A DNA stretch of 9,857 bases. It comes from a bacterium (lineage in GTDB: Bacteria > Orphanbacterota > Orphanbacteria > Orphanbacterales > Orphanbacteraceae). Within the stretch, counting starts at the first letter, position 1. The number at the start of each line of letters is the position of its first letter. A model generated the notes under the pieces. It searched no databases. It saw only the letters and a list, made by a program, of their open reading frames with translations, and was not told the DNA's origin. Location: NCBI GenBank assembly GCA_025782575.1, contig JALGYY010000022.1, positions 1-9,857 of the forward strand, in the 5' to 3' direction. This document shows positions 1 through 9,857 of this stretch, piece by piece. A program made the translations under genes and the position numbers.

Positions 1-340
1 GAAGCGACTCCCGACATCCGCTGCCGGAGATCAACGAATGAGGATAGTAATGTAAAATCCAGAAGAGGCCCGGAAGAGAAAACCCTTGCTTTGGGGCCGT
101 TCCATATCAGTTTGTTTTAGCGTCATACCCGGGGAGCCGGAGAGAGAGACCGGTGGGCAACCGCGGGTCTTTCTGCGTGTGGGGGTGGTGTGGGGGGTTT
201 GGGCGGGATCTCGCCTGTGGCGGGGCACGGATGCGAACTCAGATCCTGCTTCAAGCGCCAGAGTCTCGGGGTCTCGGGAATGAGACCCATAGTAGTAGAA
301 ATCCTAGCAATGCGTCAGAGGCCGGCGAGCTCTGCATTTC
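1..340. other. Non-coding stretch downstream of the metallopeptidase gene
   Basis: I see no convincing gene here. The short open frames on both strands lack a ribosome binding site and any recognisable domain; their translations are rich in Arg, Gly and Trp, as expected from GC-rich non-coding DNA. A G-rich segment lies at about 178-230. The only clear structure is the stem-loop at 269-288. I looked for a tRNA around 230-290 on the minus strand because of a GTTCGCATCC-like stretch, but no T-arm or cloverleaf forms. Confidence 0.6.
269..288 (-). terminator. Stem-loop 3' of the metallopeptidase gene
   Basis: GGGTCTC (269-275) pairs perfectly with GAGACCC (282-288) across a 6-nt loop, giving a 7-bp GC-rich stem about 52 nt beyond the stop codon of the minus-strand gene. 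No T-run follows on either strand, so this is not a classical intrinsic terminator. It could instead protect the 3' end of the transcript or pause polymerase. The 8-mer GTCTCGGG is also directly repeated at 263-270 and 271-278, so part of the stem may have arisen by a small local duplication. Confidence 0.35.
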
Positions 341-2887
341 TCATCGAAGGAGAATGACGCGTGTGACGGCCCGCTCGCCGGCGGCTTCGAGAGCAAAGAA
401 ATAGACGCCAGAGCGCACGGAGGGACCTGCCGTGCTTTCCCCTGACCAAACGACGTGGCCCTCGAGGCCCGCAAATCCGCCCTCGATCAGCGTCCGGACG
501 AGTCTTCCCGCCACGTCGTAGACACGAAGTGAGATCGGTCCGGACGACGGCACCGTGTAGTGAACGGTGGTAACCGGGTTGAACGGGTTCGGCGCCACGC
601 GGAGGGAAAGCACGCGCGGCGGGAGGGACGTCGCTGGCCCGGCTACATCAGTTGCCACAACGGAGCACCCGTTCACGCGGACGTCGTCGTACCAAGCTGT
701 CATGTAATCACTCGGGCCCGACGGGTCCGAGAAGTAGAAATTGCCTCGCGGGTCCCATCCGGCGTTGTACGTCGCGGTGCCAACGAACGTTCCGCCGACA
801 TCCACCGTGTACTGACGGCTCACCGGGTCCACGGTGATGACCACTTTCTTCCACGTGTTGCTGGGGCAGTAGCTCTGGAAAGCCGGGCCGAGCGCGACCC
901 GCCCACTCCAGTCGCCATTCTTGTCGTACTGAATCGCGAGAGTCGGCTGGTCGATGATGATTCGTACATGCCCGCAGAGCACCCAGAACCCCCAGTGGAA
1001 CGAGTTCCACCGATACCAGAAGGAGACCGTGTACAGTTCGGCGAAGTCGATGTCGAGCGAGGACGAGGATGCGGACGCATACGCACCGCCCGCGGCGTTG
1101 CCAGTCGACTTCACGCTCCAGATGCCGCTTTGCGCCTGGCTTCCGTCCACGGCGATCGTCGCGCCGTTGTTGGTGACGGTCCAGTCGGAGATGTTCGCGT
1201 CCTCAAAGTCGTCGACCCAGTCGGACCCGAGAAAGACAACCGTGTCGCGCGCGACGGCGCTCTCGATCCCGCGCGAGTTCGTCGCTCGCACCTCGACGTC
1301 GTGAGTCCCCCAGGCCGGCGACGCCAAGAAGGAATATGTCTCGTTGGCTTCGTCCCAAGAGCCGTCGTCCGGCGTCGCCGCCTGCCAAACGGCTCCGTCG
1401 AGTCGGTACTCCACGATCGAGACGCTCGTCACGTTGATCGAGTCACCGGAGCTCGAACCGGTCGAGTAACGCACGTGGTTCACGTTCGGCTCCACCTCCG
1501 GGATCACGCTTCCCGACCACGAGAGGGCCCCGCAGGCCGTGGACCCGCCGTAGCCGTTCAGAGCCAGCAGCGGGGGATGATCGACGATATCCGGGATCGA
1601 GTCGCCATCCGAGTCCATCCACCCGATGATGTTCCGGCAGAAGTTGCAGACGCTTCCATTGGTGAACTCAGCGAGCGTGTTGTTCTCCATGATGCACTCG
1701 ACGACCGGCTCCGGACCCTCGATACAGTTCCCGTTCGGCTGGTCGAGGTAGCCCGAGAGGCTGTCGTCGGAGCAGCCAGCGTACTCGTCGAGCGCGTAAA
1801 AAGTGTGGCCCAACTCGTGCGCCGTGAGGTAGTCGGTGTTGGCGTTCCCCCACTGGCCGCTGTCCCAGGTGAGCACCATGTACGGCCCGCCGAAGTAGGA
1901 CCAGTCGTATCTTCCGTTCGTGAACTTCCCGTCGGGATCGACCTGCGAGTTTACCGCGAAGATGGTGACGAACCACGCCTCATCAGCGTCGACTAGATAG
2001 TTGTTGTTGAAGTTCCGAACCTTGGCAAAGTAGTCAGCGCCACCATACCCGAGCGTGTCCATGAGATCGTCCACCCAGGTCGCTTCGAAGCCGGACGGAT
2101 GTCGGATCGGTTCCCACGGCGTCGCTACCTGCCAGGTGGTGGAGATCACCGTTTTCCAGCGGGCCGGGCCGTAGCGGGCGGCCCACCAATCCAGCCCGGC
2201 GGAGATTCCGATCAGCATGGTTGTCATGTCCTGCTGGATCCAGTTTTCCTGGTTGAGGTCGAGGTCGCCGTTCGACTCGGGGAAGATGATGTGGACGTTA
2301 AACTCCTCATGGAGGCTCCCGGGACCGTCGAGGATCATATACTCGCTCGTTGATGTGGGGCCGGCGCCGTAGCCCTTCTTTTCGGGGGCGCCGGAAGATT
2401 CCTCCCGGTACTCAGCGGGAACGGGAATGCCGCACGCGTAGTCGCGGGGAGGCGCGGAAACGCTGGCGGAGAGCGGCGGTTCGTCCTGCGCCGGGCGCAG
2501 GAAGTAGTCGTTCCAGATGGCGATCCCTGCCTCCTGCTCGCGCGTGAGCACGCCGTACGCCTCGGCGTTCGCGGCGTCAAAACGCACGTCGAGCACCTCG
2601 GGAAGCGCAACGATCCGGCCGCTTGCCTCGCGCGGAAGGAACGCGACAACTATCGAAGGCACGAAGACGAAGGTCACGCGACCTCCCTCGAATCGGACGA
2701 CTTCCTCCACTTGCTTGAGCGCCTCGACCGACGACGACGAGAGCAGGATCAACGCACGATCCCCCTCGGGGGCCGATATCGGCAGTCCGTTCGCGGTGAC
2801 GTCGCCCGTGAATACGAACGTCGCAATGGCGATGGCAATCCACCCGATCACCCACGACTCTCTCGATTCGGTTCCACCGGTTTTCAT
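341..2887 (-). CDS. Secreted zinc metallopeptidase, multidomain, with C-terminal FlgD-Ig/T9SS-like module
   Basis: 848-residue exported protein. The start at 2887 is chosen over an upstream in-frame start at 3031 because AGGAG lies 8 nt before it and a signal-type hydrophobic stretch follows (residues about 12-32). Residues 44-112 look like a protease-inhibitor I9-type prodomain. The catalytic region is about 183-440: HELGH at 357-361 gives two zinc histidines and the catalytic Glu358, Asp367 sits where a metzincin third ligand would be, and CIM at 398-400 could be the Met-turn. The HELGH…LDEY string also recalls M64-type peptidases, so the family is open. Then come a calcium-loop-like DSDGDSIPD (425-433), an Ig-like region (~455-552), a jelly-roll/LamG-like domain (~556-741) and a PNPFNP-led sorting-like module (~763-848). 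Ten cysteines suggest disulfides outside the cytoplasm. Substrate unknown. The coding region is much more GC-rich than the genes to its right. Confidence 0.88.
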   Translation of the reverse strand: MKTGGTESRESWVIGWIAIAIATFVFTGDVTANGLPISAPEGDRALILLSSSSVEALKQVEEVVRFEGGRVTFVFVPSIVVAFLPREASGRIVALPEVLDVRFDAANAEAYGVLTREQEAGIAIWNDYFLRPAQDEPPLSASVSAPPRDYACGIPVPAEYREESSGAPEKKGYGAGPTSTSEYMILDGPGSLHEEFNVHIIFPESNGDLDLNQENWIQQDMTTMLIGISAGLDWWAARYGPARWKTVISTTWQVATPWEPIRHPSGFEATWVDDLMDTLGYGGADYFAKVRNFNNNYLVDADEAWFVTIFAVNSQVDPDGKFTNGRYDWSYFGGPYMVLTWDSGQWGNANTDYLTAHELGHTFYALDEYAGCSDDSLSGYLDQPNGNCIEGPEPVVECIMENNTLAEFTNGSVCNFCRNIIGWMDSDGDSIPDIVDHPPLLALNGYGGSTACGALSWSGSVIPEVEPNVNHVRYSTGSSSGDSINVTSVSIVEYRLDGAVWQAATPDDGSWDEANETYSFLASPAWGTHDVEVRATNSRGIESAVARDTVVFLGSDWVDDFEDANISDWTVTNNGATIAVDGSQAQSGIWSVKSTGNAAGGAYASASSSSLDIDFAELYTVSFWYRWNSFHWGFWVLCGHVRIIIDQPTLAIQYDKNGDWSGRVALGPAFQSYCPSNTWKKVVITVDPVSRQYTVDVGGTFVGTATYNAGWDPRGNFYFSDPSGPSDYMTAWYDDVRVNGCSVVATDVAGPATSLPPRVLSLRVAPNPFNPVTTVHYTVPSSGPISLRVYDVAGRLVRTLIEGGFAGLEGHVVWSGESTAGPSVRSGVYFFALEAAGERAVTRVILLR

Positions 2888-2895
2888 GGCACGGT

Positions 2896-2900
2896 CTCCT
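2896..2900 (-). promoter_or_regulatory. Shine-Dalgarno AGGAG that fixes the metallopeptidase start
   Basis: On the minus strand the sequence reads GGAAAGGAGACCGTGCC then ATG, an 8-nt spacing. The alternative start at 3031 would add 48 Arg-rich residues in front of the signal peptide and lacks a comparable site. Confidence 0.75.
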
Positions 2901-3370
2901 TTCCTCGTGGATTTTCCTGTTTCATGCCACCTCTTCCGGCGGATGGCTCCAAAACTGGAGCGCTGTCTCCACGAGTCGTTCAGCGTCAACGGGCTGCTGT
3001 GGGCCTGGCTGCGAGGCTCAGTTTGCCCCACGCACGATCAACAGTGATACTACGAGACACCCGCGAACATCGAATGCGGATGCCCAGGCACGCCTAAGAG
3101 ATAGTTGCAGCGGAACAGGGTGATCAAAGAGATCGATGCAAAGGAACGCAGCCATGGAACTCCAAGCCCAGTGGGATTTCGTCTTCTTCTCATCTCTTGG
3201 TGAGCAGACTTTAGCTGATCCTAAGATCAATATAGCCTCGGCCACCAGGACCAACAAGGTGCCGCCCCTTGAACCCCGTAGTGTCCGAAAACTCGATCGA
3301 ATTGCAAGATCACGACTTGGGCTGCCGCTATCTCTACAATTATTAGCACCGCTTATGACAAGCGCCACAT

Positions 3371-3424
3371 CATCCTCCCGCCACGTGCGTGAGTCCTGCG
3401 CGCTCAGCCAGGTGACCCGGGCGA
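3371..3424 (+). repeat. Dispersed ~50-bp CACGTG repeat, locus 1
   Basis: One full unit begins CATCCTCCCGCC, with CACGTG at 3382-3387, continues GCGTGAGTCCTGCGC and ends with CCAGGTGACCC. The same order of blocks recurs at 3977, 4027, 6216 and 8235. This copy lies about 90 bp upstream of the lipoprotein start, the only one of the four loci not directly behind a plus-strand stop. A very degenerate second unit may follow at about 3425-3450. Confidence 0.85.
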
Positions 3425-3513
3425 CCATTGCTCTCCTGATGTGGCGGGGTCCGGCTCTTTCCCTTACACTGTGAGCGTTGTCATCTTCTACAAAGCAGTT
3501 TGTGAGGCAAGGC

Positions 3514-3918
3514 ATGTTCTCTGATCGCTTCCGAATCGCCAGGCTGCTAATTACGATCCTTACACTTCTTACCTTTAGCAGTTGTTCTGCCTATCGCCCG
3601 ATTCTTCTCAGCAGCAGCAAGTCTCAATCGAACAGTCCCGGGGCAGCGATAGATACTGATGCAATGGGCGCAAGGGTCAGGGTCCTTACCGCGGACGAGC
3701 AAATCCTGAGTGGGAGGATGCTGGCCATGGGAGAGGGGTGGGTATTAATTGAGTCCGGAGGAGAGCGCCTGCGTCTTGAGCACTCTGAGATTCAAGGAAT
3801 CTGGATTGAAGATGGTCAAAGTCCATTTCGAACAATGCTCTTGGTCGGCGTTCTGATCTTCGGTGCTGGCTTAGTGCTCTTCGCGACCTTTATAGAAAGT
3901 CTTTCTGGAGATATTTGA
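3514..3918 (+). CDS. Small lipoprotein with SH3/LSm-like domain and C-terminal membrane helix
   Basis: 134-residue protein, not assigned to a named family. A basic n-region and hydrophobic segment (residues 8-21) lead to FSSC with Cys24 as a plausible lipidation site, so export by Sec and lipid anchoring are expected. Residues 52-98 have the alternating beta pattern of a small SH3/LSm-like barrel (ARVRVLT…LSGRMLAM…WVLIES…LRLEHSEIQGIWI), seen in many uncharacterised bacterial lipoproteins. Residues about 107-126 form a Gly- and Leu-rich helix that could insert in a membrane. Start 3514 (ATG, with GAGG 6 nt upstream) is preferred to a TTG at 3478, because the latter lengthens the n-region and lacks a ribosome binding site. 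It stands alone: 61 bp further on the tandem repeat begins. Function unknown. Confidence 0.72.
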   Translation: MFSDRFRIARLLITILTLLTFSSCSAYRPILLSSSKSQSNSPGAAIDTDAMGARVRVLTADEQILSGRMLAMGEGWVLIESGGERLRLEHSEIQGIWIEDGQSPFRTMLLVGVLIFGAGLVLFATFIESLSGDI

Positions 3919-3976
3919 ATCGGTTGCCGATATTCCTGTCCTCACAATAACTCCACCAGGATGGTCTGACCGCTTC

Positions 3977-4100
3977 CATCCTCCCGCCGCGTGCGTGAGC
4001 CCTGCGCATTGAGCCACGTGACCCACATTCCTCCCGCCACGTGCGTGAGTCCTGGGCACGCGGCCACGTGACCCACGGCCCAGCGGCATCCTCCTCGCGG
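3977..4100 (+). repeat. Dispersed CACGTG repeat, locus 2: exact-period tandem pair plus partial third
   Basis: Two units, 3977-4026 and 4027-4076, are each exactly 50 bp and share most positions: (C/A)(A/T)TCCTCCCGCC, CGTGCGTGAG, CCTG, then GCCACGTGACCCAC. CACGTG occurs at 4015-4020, 4038-4043 and 4065-4070. A third, truncated unit (CATCCTCCTCGCGG) lies at 4087-4100. The array lies between the stop of the lipoprotein gene and the likely promoter of the beta-helix gene. Confidence 0.88.
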
Positions 4101-4101
4101 T

Positions 4102-4129
4102 TTCACTCCCACTGCATCTGTGATACAAT
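4102..4129 (+). promoter_or_regulatory. Candidate sigma70-type promoter of the beta-helix gene
   Basis: TACAAT (4124-4129) matches five of six -10 positions and is preceded, after a 16-bp spacer, by TTCACT (4102-4107), four of six for the -35 box. It lies about 50 bp before the ATG at 4179 and starts immediately after the last truncated repeat unit. Only the -10 box is good, so this is tentative. Confidence 0.4.
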
Positions 4130-4178
4130 CCTTTAGAAGCCCCGGTCACATCTTGGCCTCCAGTAACGAGGTGGGACT

Positions 4179-5642
4179 ATGCGCCACTGCTCGGCGACCT
4201 TATTGTTTGCCACGCTCGCCTTAACCGCACCCAGCGCCCATGCCACGACTTGGAACATCCTCCCAAACGGGACAGGAGATGCCCCAACTATTCAGGCTGG
4301 GATTGACTCCAGCGCAAGCGGAGATACGGTTCTTGTAGGTCCGGGGATCTACACGGGTATTGGGAATCGCGGTCTCGACTACGGGGGGCGGGAAATCGTA
4401 GTGCGCTCCTCAGACGGCGCATCAACGACCATCATCGATGCGGGTGGTGTCGATCGTGGTGTGCACTTCCACAGCGGGGAGACACAGAACTCGGTACTCG
4501 AAGGACTTACAATCACAAACGGGTACGTCGGCACATATCCGGGTGGTGGCGGAGTATTGATCCAGACGTCGAACCCCAAGATCCTCGATTGCGTGATAAC
4601 GGGCAACGAAGCGCACGCCCCCATGGGTGCAACTGGTGGCGGAGGAATCTGTATCGATGAAGCTTCAGCATTGATTCGTGGCACGACAATAACCTGGAAT
4701 ATAGGAGGTGGAATCTTTTCTGATGGATGGGTATCCATTCAGGATTGTGTCATTGCAGCAAATAGTACGGATCAGTCAGGTGGGGGCGTCTATGTGAATG
4801 GCACGGCAAGAATCGACAGCTGTGTTATTCGGGGAAACACCTCAGGCACATTCGGAGGTGGCATCTCTGGCGGGGTTGGAGAAGTATCGATCTCGGTAAC
4901 GCAATGTACTGTTACCAGGAATTGGGCCGGGACCAGTGGCGGTGGATTGGGATTGGGAAGATCGTATTGGTCTTGGTCACCTGGGACGAAATTGCTGGCA
5001 GCGAAGTCCCCTGAACAGAACGCGTATATTGAAAGTAGCATCATGTGGGGTAACTGCGCATCCACTGCTCGTACGGGGGAAGCTGCTCATGGCGGCGGTA
5101 TTGGCCTGATCACCTTCATGGGTGCCATTGTGGATTCAAGTGAGGTCCCGGATCCATTTTTGCACGATTACTGGTTCTGCGAATTCGAAGATCCTCTGTT
5201 CTGCGGACCTGTGGCTTGCGACAGCACTCCGAGCGATTCTGGTGACTACACGGTTGACCTGCATTCACTGGCGGTGGAATCCCCGATCATTCTATGGCCA
5301 GTGGGAGCACTGGGGGTGGGATGTAACGTTGCGACAGGCATCGCAGAACCGGCGGAGTCTGTAGTACGAACACCTAGACTCGAAGCTGCGCCCAACCCGT
5401 TCAACCCAGCCACGGTGATCAAATACTCGTTGCCGCTAGCAGGAGATGTGCGTCTCTCCATCTACGACGTAGCCGGCCGCCTCGTCCGCATCCTTGTGGA
5501 TGAGCGCGTCAGCTCAGGCAACCACACCACCACATGGGATGGGCGCGATGCGGCTGGGGTTGAAGCGTCGTCCGGCATCTACTTCACGCGGCTCGAAGCG
5601 GGTGGTGAGGTGGAGACGCGGAAGATTACGTTGGTGAGGTAG
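4179..5642 (+). CDS. Secreted right-handed parallel beta-helix protein with FlgD-Ig/T9SS-like C-terminus
   Basis: 487 residues. A Sec signal peptide (residues 1-22) ends in AHA, a good signal peptidase I site. From about 24 to 325 there are beta-helix coils of the pectate-lyase/polymorphic-outer-membrane type, opening with APTIQAGID and the phrase GDTVLVGPGIYTG. Coils repeat a GGG-start and DCVI/SCVI-N pattern (122-160, 176-195, 201-220, 226-258). No catalytic residues of a polysaccharide lyase are obvious, so a surface-binding or structural role is as likely as an enzyme. DPLFC (338-342) and GALGVGC (376-382) frame a cap-like segment often seen after such helices. Residues about 401-487 form the PNPFNP…YDVAGRLVR…GIYF module, closely similar to that of the metallopeptidase at the left, implying a shared export or cell-surface attachment route. 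ATG 4179 has GAGGTG 5 nt upstream. Confidence 0.9.
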   Translation: MRHCSATLLFATLALTAPSAHATTWNILPNGTGDAPTIQAGIDSSASGDTVLVGPGIYTGIGNRGLDYGGREIVVRSSDGASTTIIDAGGVDRGVHFHSGETQNSVLEGLTITNGYVGTYPGGGGVLIQTSNPKILDCVITGNEAHAPMGATGGGGICIDEASALIRGTTITWNIGGGIFSDGWVSIQDCVIAANSTDQSGGGVYVNGTARIDSCVIRGNTSGTFGGGISGGVGEVSISVTQCTVTRNWAGTSGGGLGLGRSYWSWSPGTKLLAAKSPEQNAYIESSIMWGNCASTARTGEAAHGGGIGLITFMGAIVDSSEVPDPFLHDYWFCEFEDPLFCGPVACDSTPSDSGDYTVDLHSLAVESPIILWPVGALGVGCNVATGIAEPAESVVRTPRLEAAPNPFNPATVIKYSLPLAGDVRLSIYDVAGRLVRILVDERVSSGNHTTTWDGRDAAGVEASSGIYFTRLEAGGEVETRKITLVR

Positions 5643-5799
5643 GTGGGTCATGCGGATCTTTCGTCAGGTGGGTAGCATCCTTCATCATCACGACCTCTAG
5701 TCTTGAGTATTGCTTCAATCTCCAGATGCTCTCGGTTGTACTTGATATTCACGCTGAGATACGTAAGCTTCCACTGGACCCCAATTGTAGGTGGTGATG

Positions 5800-6156
5800 A
5801 TGAACTGGGCTCAGAGGGTATTTATATCGATAATTGCAATCGCCATCTCTATCACATTGTTCGCCTCGTACTGGAATTTTCAACTCATGGAGCAGGGGCT
5901 AAACGCGAAGGAGTTGTATGCCATAGAGATTCTTCGAGGTCAGAAGACCATGGGATGGGATATGACGCCAGAAGAGTTCGCAAGATTAGACGAGTTAATT
6001 GAGAAAGAAACGGAATGGCGGTTCCGGCCGCTCTTGACGATGAATTCCAATATGCTAGCTGCTCCTACCCGAGCAGTTCTGCTGGGTCTCGTTCTCCCGC
6101 TTGCCTTGATTGGTTCCGCCGGGTTGGTGCTACTTGCATCTAAGAGCAGAAAATGA
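5800..6156 (+). CDS. Small two-helix inner-membrane protein, function unknown
   Basis: 118 residues; not recognised. A hydrophobic helix at about 7-25 and a second at about 91-114 flank a charged segment of about 60 residues (NAKELYAIEILRG…MTPEEFARLDELIEKE), so a hairpin topology is expected; the middle segment looks helical and is probably on the outer side if the first helix acts as an uncleaved signal anchor. The run GTG GTG ATG ATG (5791-5802) offers four starts. ATG 5800 is preferred because AGGTGG (5789-5794) then sits 5 nt away. The gene stands 157 bp behind the beta-helix gene and is followed after about 60 bp by another copy of the CACGTG repeat. No catalytic motif is visible. Confidence 0.65.
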   Translation: MNWAQRVFISIIAIAISITLFASYWNFQLMEQGLNAKELYAIEILRGQKTMGWDMTPEEFARLDELIEKETEWRFRPLLTMNSNMLAAPTRAVLLGLVLPLALIGSAGLVLLASKSRK

Positions 6157-6215
6157 CAGACTTGTACCTAGAAGAAACTCCATCCGCTCAACATGAACGT
6201 TTGGCGCAGCAATGC

Positions 6216-6280
6216 CCACCTCCCACCACGTGCGTGAGTCCTGCGCGCTCGGCCAGGTGACCTGGGGCCATTCTTCCGCC
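6216..6280 (+). repeat. Dispersed CACGTG repeat, locus 3
   Basis: A full unit runs from 6216 to about 6265: CCTCCCACCACGTGCGTGAG, then TCCTGCGCGCTCGGCCAGGTGACC, with CACGTG at 6227-6232, the same offset (11 nt from unit start) as in the copies at 3371 and 4027. A degenerate second unit follows (ATTCTTCCGCC, 6270-6280), at roughly the 50-bp period of the tandem array. It sits about 60 bp behind the stop of the two-helix membrane protein. Confidence 0.85.
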
Positions 6281-6327
6281 TAGTGAATGTTACTCGGTAC
6301 GGTGCGGTGGTTGGAGCGGGTCTCTAG

Positions 6328-6435
6328 GCTAGATATGGGAATGAGCGGGATCATTGGAATTACTTCTTGGTTGGGGTTTTCCTGGTAATGGGTATACTGG
6401 GACCGACGCTTGAGGGCTTATGGTCGTCAGCATGA
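6328..6435 (+). other. Open stretch encoding a membrane-like segment; possible gene remnant
   Basis: The 429-bp gap between 6156 and 6586 has no complete gene. Within it a 35-codon frame (bounded by stops at 6325-6327 and 6433-6435) encodes WNYFLVGVFLVMGILG followed by PTLEGLWSSA, which resembles a transmembrane helix with a short polar tail. It has no ATG near its beginning and no ribosome binding site, so if it was ever coding it is the 3' end of a lost gene. It may also be chance. Confidence 0.2.
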
Positions 6436-6585
6436 CAAAAGGCGGCGCTGTTGGCGCGTCTTGGTCGAATCTTGTCTGACACGCTGTGGCAACGGAAGGG
6501 ATGACCGGCGCAGCGCATTAGCTTTGTTAGCAATTCATGGAGAAATGTGTCAGAACGATATAGTTAGTAGGAAAGAAGACTGAGT

Positions 6586-7728
6586 ATGACCACGCCCGCC
6601 ATTCCCGACGAGATTCGACATACTATACTAGCCATTAGCATTGCTCTAGCATTGGCACCGTATATTCCGGGGCGGGATTTGGGCCCAATTAAGGTGCCCA
6701 AAGTTAACGCGATGTTTCGGAAGCTGCTTCAGTGGGGCGGCCCTCTTCTGATAATCATCTCGGTGCTCCTATATCTTCCAATCATTCCTGAAACCGAACA
6801 ACCAAGTTTCCGCTTCAAGGATGCCATATGCCGTCCGGACACGCTCTGGATAGTGCAGGAGGGAGGACCCCGTTTCGAACCGGACCATTTGACTCTTGAG
6901 TTAGACGGAATTCCTTTTCATGAACAAGTTCTTCGTGGACCAAACAGTAGGGTTGATAACTGGTACTTCGCAATGCAAGGTCGCAATCTCCCTGAAGACC
7001 TTGTAAAGGATGGAGCACATGACATACGAATTCTATCTCGAGGACGTGATCTCGCCAATCATGGAAAGGTTTTCTTTTCATCCTCCCCTCCGACGGTAAG
7101 CGCTCACATTGAGAAGCAGGATATGGATTCCTACGGCATTTTCGGCAAGGCGATAACCGGAACTCGGCTCACTAGCGACACTATCAAAGTAAACCTGCTT
7201 TTCTTCCATGAAGGGGCGGGCCAAAAGGTGGCAGTCCCCGTGATCCAGGTCGTAGATCTTGAGAGCGGCGATGCGCACTACGAATTCCACTACAGAATTT
7301 CAAACGTCCCGAATATGACATCCGAATCGCAAGCGTTTGATAGCCCGTTTTTTAGAATGGAAATCACTGATCAGATAGGGAACGAATTTCACCACGTTCA
7401 ATCATACGCTCATTTTGTCGCGCCGGGGAGGCAGTCATTTGGAACAGACCGGACCAAGATCTCAGTTAGGAAAGTTTCCGGGGAAGAACCGGGCGAGATT
7501 CGCGCCCAAATCCGGGTAAGCTCGGGAAGAACTCTTGGCGACTGGAAGAATAGTGACACTCATCCGATTTCGCTATTGGTGAACGGCCAGGCGGGGGGCA
7601 CAAGATCTCTATCATGGACTGACCTGCCTGATAGCAACAACGCGCGACCTTCCTTGACGGTTACCTTCCTTGACGGTTGTACTTCGAGATGGTCGAAGCA
7701 TTGGGGTTTCATTTGGAAACCAATATAG
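6586..7728 (+). CDS. N-terminal part of a frameshifted membrane-anchored protein
   Basis: 380 residues as read, but the last 21 (360-380) are out of frame because of the duplication at 7647-7678. Two hydrophobic helices, about 11-26 and 49-67, are separated by a short loop (PYIPGRDLGPIKVPKV) and followed by a large exported region. That region has beta-strand-rich stretches resembling Ig-like or carbohydrate-binding sandwiches (for example FEPDHLTLELDGIPF, HDIRILSRGRD, HPISLLVNGQ), but I cannot name a family. ATG 6586 has only an AG-rich stretch upstream (AGGAAAGAAG at 6569-6578) rather than a well-spaced Shine-Dalgarno. Removing one copy of the 16-bp duplication fuses it to the fragment ending at 8164 to give about 520 residues, presumably the ancestral form. 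As it stands the product lacks the fibronectin-III-like end. Composition is clearly less GC-rich than the metallopeptidase gene. Confidence 0.7.
   Translation: MTTPAIPDEIRHTILAISIALALAPYIPGRDLGPIKVPKVNAMFRKLLQWGGPLLIIISVLLYLPIIPETEQPSFRFKDAICRPDTLWIVQEGGPRFEPDHLTLELDGIPFHEQVLRGPNSRVDNWYFAMQGRNLPEDLVKDGAHDIRILSRGRDLANHGKVFFSSSPPTVSAHIEKQDMDSYGIFGKAITGTRLTSDTIKVNLLFFHEGAGQKVAVPVIQVVDLESGDAHYEFHYRISNVPNMTSESQAFDSPFFRMEITDQIGNEFHHVQSYAHFVAPGRQSFGTDRTKISVRKVSGEEPGEIRAQIRVSSGRTLGDWKNSDTHPISLLVNGQAGGTRSLSWTDLPDSNNARPSLTVTFLDGCTSRWSKHWGFIWKPI
7647..7678 (+). repeat. Exact 16-bp tandem duplication causing a frameshift
   Basis: ACCTTCCTTGACGGTT occurs twice without any gap, at 7647-7662 and 7663-7678. 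Sixteen is not a multiple of three, so the frame shifts by one and a stop appears at 7726-7728. With one copy removed the reading runs RPSLTVVLRDGRSIGVSF without interruption into the second fragment. The arrangement is what replication slippage or an assembly duplication would leave. Confidence 0.95.
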
Positions 7729-8164
7729 TGACTCCGACCGGCTTGATTCAAGCCGTGTTGCCTATAGAGTAGAGAGCCGTGTTTCGGACGGATCTGTTTA
7801 CTCTAGCAACACCGAAGTATATTCAGTTCCCCTGACGATCTCAGACATCACAGCGTCCCCATCTGGACTCGATGCGTTCGCTGTTACGATTACGTGGAAG
7901 ACCAATTTAGCTTCAGATTCGCAGGTGGAATTTGGAGAAACAGAGGAGTATTCAGCGCGTAGCATCGTCGACACAGCACAATTGAGTGAGCACTCGATAA
8001 CTCTTCTCGAGCCAGAAGTACGAGACGATATTCTATATCATTTTCGAGTTATCTCAACTTCACCAGAGGTTGGTATGGTGAAATCCGGTGATTTCTCGTT
8101 TCGTTTTGATGTTCCGGGAGTCGGGAGTCCAAGTGTGATAACTGGGCTTCGAGAAATACAATGA
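7670..8164 (+). pseudogene. C-terminal part of the frameshifted protein, fibronectin-III-like
   Basis: 164 residues counted from a TTG at 7670, which lies inside the duplication and is not a credible independent start: no ribosome binding site precedes it. Residues about 56-146 form a fibronectin type III-like domain of the kind found in surface and phosphatase-N proteins: VTITWKTNLASDSQVEFGET is followed by HSITLLEP, ILYHFRVISTS and SGDFSFRF, matching the strand order ITW…VEYG…H…L…YHYRV. In the repaired gene this domain is the outermost end of the membrane-anchored protein, a likely ligand-binding or spacer module. Unless frameshifting, slippage or independent initiation rescues it, this part is not translated. 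The stop at 8162-8164 precedes the terminator of the opposite operon. Confidence 0.75.
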
Positions 8165-8199
8165 ATCTGCCCTGTCTATCCGGAAAGACCGGTGTCCTT

Positions 8200-8226
8200 A
8201 AAAAAACTCCATCTGCACTTGATGGA
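8200..8226 (-). terminator. Intrinsic terminator of the minus-strand operon
   Basis: Read on the minus strand, TCCATC (8226-8221) pairs with GATGGA (8213-8208) across a 7-nt loop; one G then precedes seven T residues (8206-8200). It lies about 120 nt beyond the lipoprotein stop, with a repeat copy between, and also separates this operon from the convergent plus-strand gene ending at 8164. The plus strand lacks a T-run after the stem, so it should act in one direction only. Confidence 0.7.
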
Positions 8227-8234
8227 CGTCAGGC

Positions 8235-8310
8235 CATCCTCCCGCCGCGTGCGTGAGTCCTGCGCGCGTGGCCAGGGGACGCACACATCCTCCCGGCGCG
8301 TGGTGGGGCG
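8235..8310 (+). repeat. Dispersed CACGTG-type repeat, locus 4
   Basis: The full unit, 8235 to about 8284, starts CATCCTCCCGCCGCGTGCG, continues TGAGTCCTGCGCGCGTGGCCA and ends with a diverged GGGGACGCAC. Here the CACGTG core reads CGCGTG, as in the unit at 3977. A degenerate second unit starts at 8286 (CATCCTCCCGGCGCGTGGTG), a 51-bp period. The copy lies between the convergent genes, inside the region expected to be transcribed from the minus strand before the terminator. Confidence 0.85.
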
Positions 8311-8345
8311 TGAATTGCTGTCGATGGGAAAAGCTAAAGAGTAGA

Positions 8346-8849
8346 CTACCGTTCGAAATAATCATCCACAGGATCGTACATCCTTGATTCTCCGGGGATT
8401 CTGGGGGGGCGGGGGATTCTCTTGTACACAATTTCATCCCCATCTCGATACCTGATGACCCAATGATTTAGTTTGGGTTCGCGCATTAGGTTGTAGGTGT
8501 ACTCTCCCTGGTAAAACACGAAAGTATTGGATAGCATTTCAAACGTGTATTCGTAGAGTGGGTCCTGAACCATGTGATAATTATAGACAAGCCCTACCCA
8601 CATCTTTGAGGTGTTCTCTCCGAACGGCCTCGTGATCATCTCGTCGGGCTCGCCAAAGACTTTTGTGATTTCGGCGGGGAGCATACCGACTCTAATCTCT
8701 TCCACGGCGAGGGCAGAGAATGAGGGGTGACGGTTCGGGCTGCCAGCAGCACACCCCTGCCCTATTAGAACGACAACCAGTATAGCGAGAAGCGCTTTCG
8801 TCCAGGCCCGGATCATCGAGACACCACAATTGTCACTTCTACTGAACAT
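8346..8849 (-). CDS. Outer-envelope lipoprotein with BamE/SmpA-like motif
   Basis: 167 residues. Positive residues (MIRAWTK, 12-18) and a hydrophobic stretch (19-29) lead to LIGQGC with Cys33 as the probable lipidation site, though the residues before it are not a textbook lipobox. Residues about 48-70 read VEEIRVGMLPAEITKVFGEP, the hallmark of BamE/SmpA/OmlA-like proteins (small alpha-beta lipoproteins, in BamE a part of the outer-membrane beta-barrel assembly machine). Later strands (TFVFYQGEYTYNL, HWVIRYRDGDEIVYKR) fit the fold; the acidic-aromatic tail to 167 is extra. Membership of the actual BAM complex is not implied, as the fold is widespread. Start 8849 (ATG, GAGGA 5 nt upstream) overlaps the preceding gene by 11 bp, indicating translational coupling; an internal ATG at 8816 would give a shorter signal peptide but has a weaker site. 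Confidence 0.72.
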   Translation of the reverse strand: MFSRSDNCGVSMIRAWTKALLAILVVVLIGQGCAAGSPNRHPSFSALAVEEIRVGMLPAEITKVFGEPDEMITRPFGENTSKMWVGLVYNYHMVQDPLYEYTFEMLSNTFVFYQGEYTYNLMREPKLNHWVIRYRDGDEIVYKRIPRPPRIPGESRMYDPVDDYFER

Positions 8850-9723
8850 GCAATTCCTCGTCATCAGCAAACAACTGTTCCCGTACGGCCTCAAAATCAA
8901 GCCAGATTCTCTCGACGGTTCCTTGGGGGACGGGTATGCGCAATGGCTCGTCCGGCTTGTCGATACTAATAATTTCAATAAGAACGTCTGGCCATTCTCC
9001 GGAGCGGGGCTCGAATAGCTCGGGTAAGAACTGGAACATACCGAATTGCGCTAAATCCCTCCCGGCCACGAATCCACCATCGCCAAAATCCATCTTGCTG
9101 TAGGTAACACCCCGGCGAACCTCCTTAGCTGGGACGCCATCTATCTTGAGAATCAGATCCAGGAGATCCCCCTTGAATTCCATTTCATATTGTCCGTAGT
9201 ATGTTGTTCCGACCAGCCCGGCTGCGATGGAGCCGAGAATGTTTCCTGCAATACTCCCCCCAGTTTGGCCGATTTCGGGGAAAGCGGTAATCAAGACTGT
9301 GGGTGTATACTGCCCAAGGTATTGATACCAGTCTTTGAGATCTTCGAAAGCATCATACGTATCGATTTCTCGGGCTCCGCCCTTTGCCTCTCTCTTTCTT
9401 CTCTTCTTCATCAGTTCGAATTCGTTCTTTTTCTGCGAATGGTAAACCTGCGGCGGTGTGGTAATCTGCACTCGGTAGTCACCGGTCTTCGTGATTGAAG
9501 AGAGCTCATACACTCGTAGATTCCTGCCTATTCTTAGCGCCGCTGCTTCCAGTCCCCATATAGGATAGGGATAAGGAGGAAGAACAGGCAGCTTCTCCGG
9601 GCTGGGAGGCTCTGTGTCGGCGGCGAGCTCAGCGGCGCGGGTTATCAACCCGAGCGCCGGTGTAATAACCACACTCCCAGATAGTCCCGGCCCGCGTCGG
9701 GTAAAATCACCAAACGTATTCAT
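8839..9723 (-). CDS. Uncharacterised 294-residue protein, first gene of the lipoprotein operon
   Basis: I do not recognise the family. There is no clear signal peptide; the first 60 residues are Pro- and Ala-rich (PSPEKLPVLPPYPYP at 41-55). Residues about 66-92 look like a beta strand pair, 98-116 is a strongly basic patch (KKNEFELMKKRRKREAKGG), and 153-176 is a Gly-rich small-residue hydrophobic segment (GGSIAGNILGSIAAGLVG) that could be a membrane helix or a packed GxxxG-type helix. The C-terminal half (178-280) is beta-rich with FKGDLLDLILKIDGV, FGMFQFLPELFEP and VERIWLDF, and looks like a folded domain. ATG 9723 is chosen over a GTG at 9732, because AGGGA precedes the ATG by 10 nt but abuts the GTG. 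Its 11-bp overlap with the downstream lipoprotein suggests the two products act together at the envelope; that is inference from position only. Confidence 0.65.
   Translation of the reverse strand: MNTFGDFTRRGPGLSGSVVITPALGLITRAAELAADTEPPSPEKLPVLPPYPYPIWGLEAAALRIGRNLRVYELSSITKTGDYRVQITTPPQVYHSQKKNEFELMKKRRKREAKGGAREIDTYDAFEDLKDWYQYLGQYTPTVLITAFPEIGQTGGSIAGNILGSIAAGLVGTTYYGQYEMEFKGDLLDLILKIDGVPAKEVRRGVTYSKMDFGDGGFVAGRDLAQFGMFQFLPELFEPRSGEWPDVLIEIISIDKPDEPLRIPVPQGTVERIWLDFEAVREQLFADDEELHVQ
8855..8859 (-). promoter_or_regulatory. Shine-Dalgarno GAGGA inside the upstream gene
   Basis: On the minus strand GAGGAATTGC precedes ATG 8849, a 5-nt spacing. It lies within the last codons of the upstream gene (stop at 8839-8841), which decides the lipoprotein start and supports a two-gene operon. 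Confidence 0.65.
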
Positions 9724-9811
9724 TGCGACCACTTCCCTGTCATTGTATGTCGTCAGCCAAAATGGGACAGTTTCTCCTGAGAGCTAAAGGACACCCTCTC
9801 TTAGATCAGCA

Positions 9812-9834
9812 GGCCGAAGTAAATCGTTTCGGCC
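9812..9834 (-). promoter_or_regulatory. Hairpin in the leader of the minus-strand operon
   Basis: GGCCGAA (9812-9818) and TTCGGCC (9828-9834) form a perfect 7-bp stem around a 9-nt loop. If the TATAAT at 9850-9855 is the -10 box, the stem would begin within about 10 nt of the transcript's 5' end, a position typical of stabilising leaders or operator sites. No T-run follows, so termination is unlikely. Confidence 0.4.
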
Positions 9835-9849
9835 AATCGATCTCCCTTG

Positions 9850-9855
9850 ATTATA
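9850..9855 (-). promoter_or_regulatory. Candidate -10 box (TATAAT) of the minus-strand operon
   Basis: The minus strand reads TATAAT, a perfect -10 consensus, about 125 nt before the ATG at 9723. The -35 box would lie beyond the window edge and cannot be judged. Confidence 0.4.
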
Positions 9856-9857
9856 CC

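Follow-up and report, generated by a model that had tools for sequence, protein, structure and literature searches.

The closest precedent for the repeats described here is BrickBuilt of Porphyromonas gingivalis, a minisatellite inside a miniature inverted-repeat transposable element (MITE) (PMC4596501). In BrickBuilt, a tandem repeat with a variable number of units lies between a leader and a tail with terminal inverted repeats like those of a resident insertion sequence (IS); its 19 copies are all intergenic, and some lack the leader, the tail or both (PMC4596501). Intergenic placement is described for prokaryotic MITEs in general, with one family that prefers 3' untranslated regions (PMC10969869). 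The element considered here, D1, is a repeat unit of 48-53 bp found in a 9,857-nucleotide stretch (the window; assembly GCA_025782575.1, contig JALGYY010000022.1, positions 1 to 9,857) from a bacterium of the Orphanbacteraceae. The window is part of contig C25 in a genome of 4.88 Mb and 49 contigs. The best reading of D1 is, as in BrickBuilt, a minisatellite carried within a MITE of the same architecture, here a family of gene-less derivatives of a resident DDE (rve_3, IS481/IS3-like) IS, and we give this reading a probability of about 0.8. The two systems differ in several ways. BrickBuilt units are 23 nt long and have no linkers, whereas D1 units are longer, GC-rich and joined by variable linkers; BrickBuilt ends are IS5-family terminal inverted repeats, whereas the ends here are IS481/IS3-like and of different sequence; BrickBuilt has no counterpart of the minimal copy found here, which lacks a full unit; and the elements here share a uniform orientation within each contig. 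The kind of element is thus already known elsewhere, and this uniform orientation is its unusual and unexpected part.

Five D1 copies at four intergenic loci are present in the window, with starts at 3374, 3980, 4030, 6219 and 8238. All lie on the plus strand, as an earlier note, made from the sequence alone, had described. Identity among the five is 81-94% over 48 nt, and each unit scores about 50-59 bits against a profile hidden Markov model (HMM), far above chance. The other measurements of the earlier note were largely borne out. The tandem pair at the 3977 locus (3980/4030) has a period of exactly 50 nt, the units are richer in G+C than their flanks (69-75% versus 47-56%), and three loci begin shortly behind plus-strand stops, with 58 bp from stop 3918 to D1 start 3976, 58 bp from 6156 to 6214 and 68 bp from 8164 to 8232. 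Its claim of a degenerate second unit at the remaining loci held clearly only for the partial unit behind the 8238 copy (8285-8312), a weak one being found at 6269 and a doubtful one at the 3369 locus. Its view that the repeats lack CRISPR-like spacers is correct: a CRISPR array was ruled out, since the units abut with linkers of 0-5 nt and no unique spacers of fixed length lie between them.

The units are framed by two further blocks, and the shared sequence thus extends beyond the unit that the earlier note described. Upstream of many D1 arrays lies a shared block of 40-46 bp, TGTCCCTCAAAAAAACTCCATCTGCACGAGATGAGCGCTAGACCCAC, the right end (RE), and downstream of other arrays lies a second block of ~80 bp, the left end (LE), whose end GCRGAYGGAATTATTTGGAGGGACA is approximately the inverted complement of the RE end. 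RE stands ahead of D1 at ~7 loci and LE behind it at 7 loci, and no order other than RE-D1-LE occurs. An element is built from the right IS end (RE, ~46 bp), zero to five D1 units and the left IS end, the latter lying in the IS just before the transposase start. Because RE is clear at two loci of the window (Table 1), the gap between stop and unit is largely filled by it. Two complete small elements can be recognized, neither with a transposase gene. One, of 166 bp (C45:2554-2719), has the initial ~21 bases of a D1 unit between RE and LE; the other, of 240 bp (C9:24304-24543), has two D1 units between RE and a variant form of LE. When the two ends of the C9 element are compared in inverted orientation without gaps, 20 of 27 positions agree; no more than 17 agreed in any of 20,000 random pairs. 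The absence of a long inverted repeat, as claimed earlier, is correct for the unit but not for the element as a whole, which is bounded by inverted repeats.

The same ends bound an IS. At C45:7478-8786, RE and LE lie on either side of a 341-aa protein that has an rve_3 integrase core, and the two blocks are inverted repeats common to the gene-less elements and this intact, transposase-bearing IS, although individual inverted-repeat scores are modest. The elements share the ends of the IS but carry no transposase, and that of the IS would have mobilised them in trans. Further copies or fragments of the transposase occur at C45:11575, C26:95514 and C36:15571-15754, with LE at the start side of each. 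LE occupies the same position before the transposase start at C45:8709, C45:12307 and C26:95455, with a remnant at C36:15435. Against NCBIfam, the IS protein reaches 82 bits for IS3 (cut-off 160) and 74 bits for IS481 (cut-off 224); both scores are below cut-off, so the IS is placed only loosely as IS481/IS3-like. Another genus of the family holds three homologous IS copies, 66-72% identical, and LE precedes the transposase in all three (26.1, 21.5 and 11.6 bits, one visible by BLAST), while D1 does not occur in that genus. As an IS end, LE therefore predates D1.

Copies of D1 are numerous in this genome and confined to it among the genomes searched. BLAST and pattern scans were run on the entire genome, profile scans on selected contigs. 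The pattern scan returned ~30 strong D1 copies on only six contigs, on one strand per contig, and BLAST together with the profile scans gave ~44 units in ~20 arrays of one to five copies on seven contigs. Counting RE, LE or D1, there are ~50 loci on the seven contigs, mainly intergenic. The earlier note had looked to a genome scan with a unit profile, taking few further copies, or copies within genes in random orientation, to speak against a dispersed family; the ~44 units are intergenic and of one orientation per contig. A search at up to two mismatches gave no D1 in 59 other genomes, of which six belong to the same family, and BLAST with the element as a whole likewise returned none from six family genomes. 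An exact-pattern scan gave five isolated, chance-like single matches among 85,000 species genomes (GTDB contigs) and no match in IMG/VR.

Some observations count against a MITE origin and must be set beside this evidence. About half of the D1 arrays have no recognizable RE or LE, only one array with full units clearly has both, and a single full-length IS with both ends is present. With gapped scoring over 28 nt, the terminal inverted repeats of single copies score 7-12 against a null maximum of 13; these values are less clear, and the case therefore rests on the family-wide pattern. A clear target-site duplication was not seen at the complete copies, which may be old, and no polymorphic empty site was shown among the compared genomes, which include no second strain of the species or genus.

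Orientation is close to uniform. After loci were merged, 50 of 51 elements on the seven contigs point the way that prevails on their contig (C9, 2; C25, 4; C45, 8 of 9; C36, 7; C39, 8; C40, 6; C26, 15), the sole exception being a 19.5-bit RE match beside the IS on C45. On C17 there are two weak LE matches, opposed to each other. Genes, called as long open frames only and hence counted approximately, lie about half on each strand of the element contigs. In gaps between tandem genes, 17 of 20 elements run with transcription (one-sided p 0.001), and 11 of 11 D1 loci do so; D1 arrays are found at gene ends and in convergent gaps, not specifically at promoters. On six of the seven contigs the element strand has a positive GC skew, with C25 within error, and on C45 the skew is opposite but small; it is weakly suggested that replication direction sets element orientation. 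Alternatively, all of these contigs might derive from one replichore or one region. Orientation biases have been reviewed for Tn7, IS200/IS605 and several IS families with transposases that contact the sliding clamp (PMC5371812). Insertion or retention of the elements may likewise depend on the direction of replication and transcription. A stronger version, which we consider unlikely, is a genome-wide polarised system in which insertion or retention is almost fully locked to one fork direction and the direct-orientation D1 arrays act as exchange points for deletion, duplication and swapping of the genes between them, a cassette-like shuffling without an integrase.

The history of the arrays can be approached through unit identity, which is 0.819 within and 0.825 between arrays (permutation p 0.70; 39 units, 19 arrays). 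Recent local slippage was rejected, and the arrays have not grown recently in place, because units of one array resemble each other no more closely than units from different arrays do. Older growth, followed by spread and by exchange of units between arrays, would explain these identities. As to the source of the unit, the IS right end GTCCTGAGCGCCAAGCCACATGA is identical to D1 GTCCTGCGCACTCAGCCACGTGA at 18 of 23 positions, a match equalled in 13 of 1000 shuffles (~1.3%). On this resemblance, which is suggestive only, D1 may have originated in that right end; it would have grown by tandem duplication beside the end, which the 3' half of the unit resembles.

Direct intergenic tandem repeats of ~50 nt behind co-directional genes are known from mycobacteria as mycobacterial interspersed repetitive units (MIRUs). 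D1 resembles them in being intergenic, tandem and of one orientation, a likeness that concerns arrangement only; to our knowledge, MIRUs are not bounded by IS ends. D1 could be a free-standing unit of the MIRU type, or of the repetitive extragenic palindromic (REP) type, with a role at transcript ends or in mRNA stability, and captured beside IS ends by chance. The co-directional placement noted above would suit such a role, as would the arrays with neither RE nor LE and units that are no more alike within arrays than between them. However, wherever ends survive, the order and orientation RE-D1-LE is kept, and no stable conserved RNA fold was found. Seven of eight stretches fold within 1.3 standard deviations of their shuffles (z-scores -0.3 to -1.2) and the eighth has a z-score of -2.5, an unremarkable picture overall, and an Rfam search gave only a sub-threshold match outside the repeats. 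REP and REPIN sequences with a RAYT are likewise short, dispersed and intergenic, but D1 has neither a conserved palindrome nor a Y1 transposase nearby. The earlier note had proposed a search for a RAYT/TnpA_REP-like gene; the four Y1_Tnp genes of the genome lie on C24, C37, C42 and C5, none of them an array contig. Of its likeness to REP/MITE-type elements, the MITE half was upheld (ends homologous to the resident IS, intergenic placement, many copies) and the REP half was not, since there is no conserved hairpin and RAYT-type genes are on other contigs. We judge a free-standing unit improbable. Still further from likely is that a host protein binds D1 at CACGTG and that the units are a stock of its sites, kept by selection as regulatory sequence. 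The core CCACGTGCGTGAG is strongly conserved among the units, but recent spread predicts high conservation as well, the second CACGTG is CAGGTG in most copies of the unit alignment, and the placement of the arrays does not favour promoters.

The orientation and the position behind stops also prompted comparison with integron attC sites. In an integron-like cassette array, the elements would be recombination sites at gene 3' ends, pointing one way, with genes gained and lost between them. This would fit the uniform orientation of 50 of 51 loci, the common position of sites behind the stop of a co-directional gene, the spacing of arrays on C25 and C39, where neighbours are separated by about one gene, and the varied accessory genes, which include a Thoeris-like ThsB on C9. 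However, on reading, D1 contains none of the attC core sites (RYYYAAC/GTTRRRY) and no conserved hairpin, LE and RE are the ends of a DDE-transposase IS, and the true integron of this genome, on C28, has classic attC sites of another sequence together with a frameshift-split integrase. Integron attC was ruled out as the identity of D1 on its missing core sites and the classic ones of C28, and the wider cassette-array explanation is quite unlikely. The integron itself lies at the contig end (C28:104610-108372), with intI (TIGR02249, 345 bits) split near 105395 and cassettes after it that carry attC sites TAACAAGCGC...GCGTTAGGC. Xer-like tyrosine recombinases were also considered as partners of D1, with no link found: of the three (C39:10066, C9:49581 and C12:1909), two are on array contigs at a distance of 17-25 kb and one is on a contig without D1. 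The three are near-identical genes for products of 290 aa, and their 86-88% identity ends near the gene borders.

If D1 is a minisatellite within IS-derived MITEs, the combination seen in BrickBuilt is not peculiar to Porphyromonas, and it has apparently arisen a further time, independently and from another parent IS family. The near-complete orientation lock also provides a way to test how the direction of replication or of transcription shapes where DDE IS settle.

Table 1. D1 units and right-end (RE) blocks in the window, with scores where available.
Feature	Position	Strand	Evidence and remarks
Weak RE-like stretch upstream of the 3369 D1	about 3281-3310	+	RE score 2.4 bits, borderline
D1 unit, single	3369-3419	+	nhmmer 59.0 bits; partial second unit doubtful
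RE-like block CCTGTCCTCACAATAACTCCA..., probably a degraded right IS end preceding the D1 pair	3935-3975	+	By eye; HMM 3.0 bits, top of background, weak
D1 unit 1 of tandem pair	3976-4027	+	51.2 bits
D1 unit 2 of tandem pair, 50-nt period	4025-4078	+	55.9 bits
RE, right-end block of IS/MITE family	6163-6208	+	38.0 bits; begins 7 bp past stop 6156
D1 unit	6214-6264	+	52.7 bits
RE, right-end block of IS/MITE family	8195-8236	+	40.8 bits
D1 unit	8232-8284	+	49.5 bits
Degenerate partial D1 unit CATCCTCCCGGCGCGTGGTGGGG	8285-8312	+	Sequence; such partial last units also end arrays at other loci

Several neighbouring features were noted along the way. Directly upstream of a D1 locus on C9, the ThsB (Thoeris TIR-like) protein adjoins a PDC-M50A-like membrane protein and an AAA-TIR protein (C9:19828-22978, or L031:5829-8979), likely a defence cluster. 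On C45, a group II intron reverse transcriptase/maturase (L039:4054-5274; TIGR04416, 351 bits) lies near an RE-D1 element. A second dispersed repeat, TGTAGCGGTTCAGCGAACATGAGACAGA, occurs at C45:7118 and 7279, C9:23001, C26:100678, C36:23927, C12:12850 and other sites. It sometimes forms an inverted pair around an RE-D1 element (C45:7118-7306) and probably represents the ends of another mobile element. Within the window, the stretch at 9744-9789, starting TGTATGTCGTCAGCCAAAATGGGACAG, recurs nearly unchanged downstream of the C9 recombinase and is another dispersed repeat. Small lipoprotein-like genes at 3513-3918 of the window and at C36:10331-10744 have in common their start region, a signal peptide (MFSDRFR.ARL) and an upstream D1 locus, while their later parts differ. 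Finally, two adjoining frames of 380 and 164 aa at 6586-8164 of the window, which match no family, may be a single gene broken by a frameshift.

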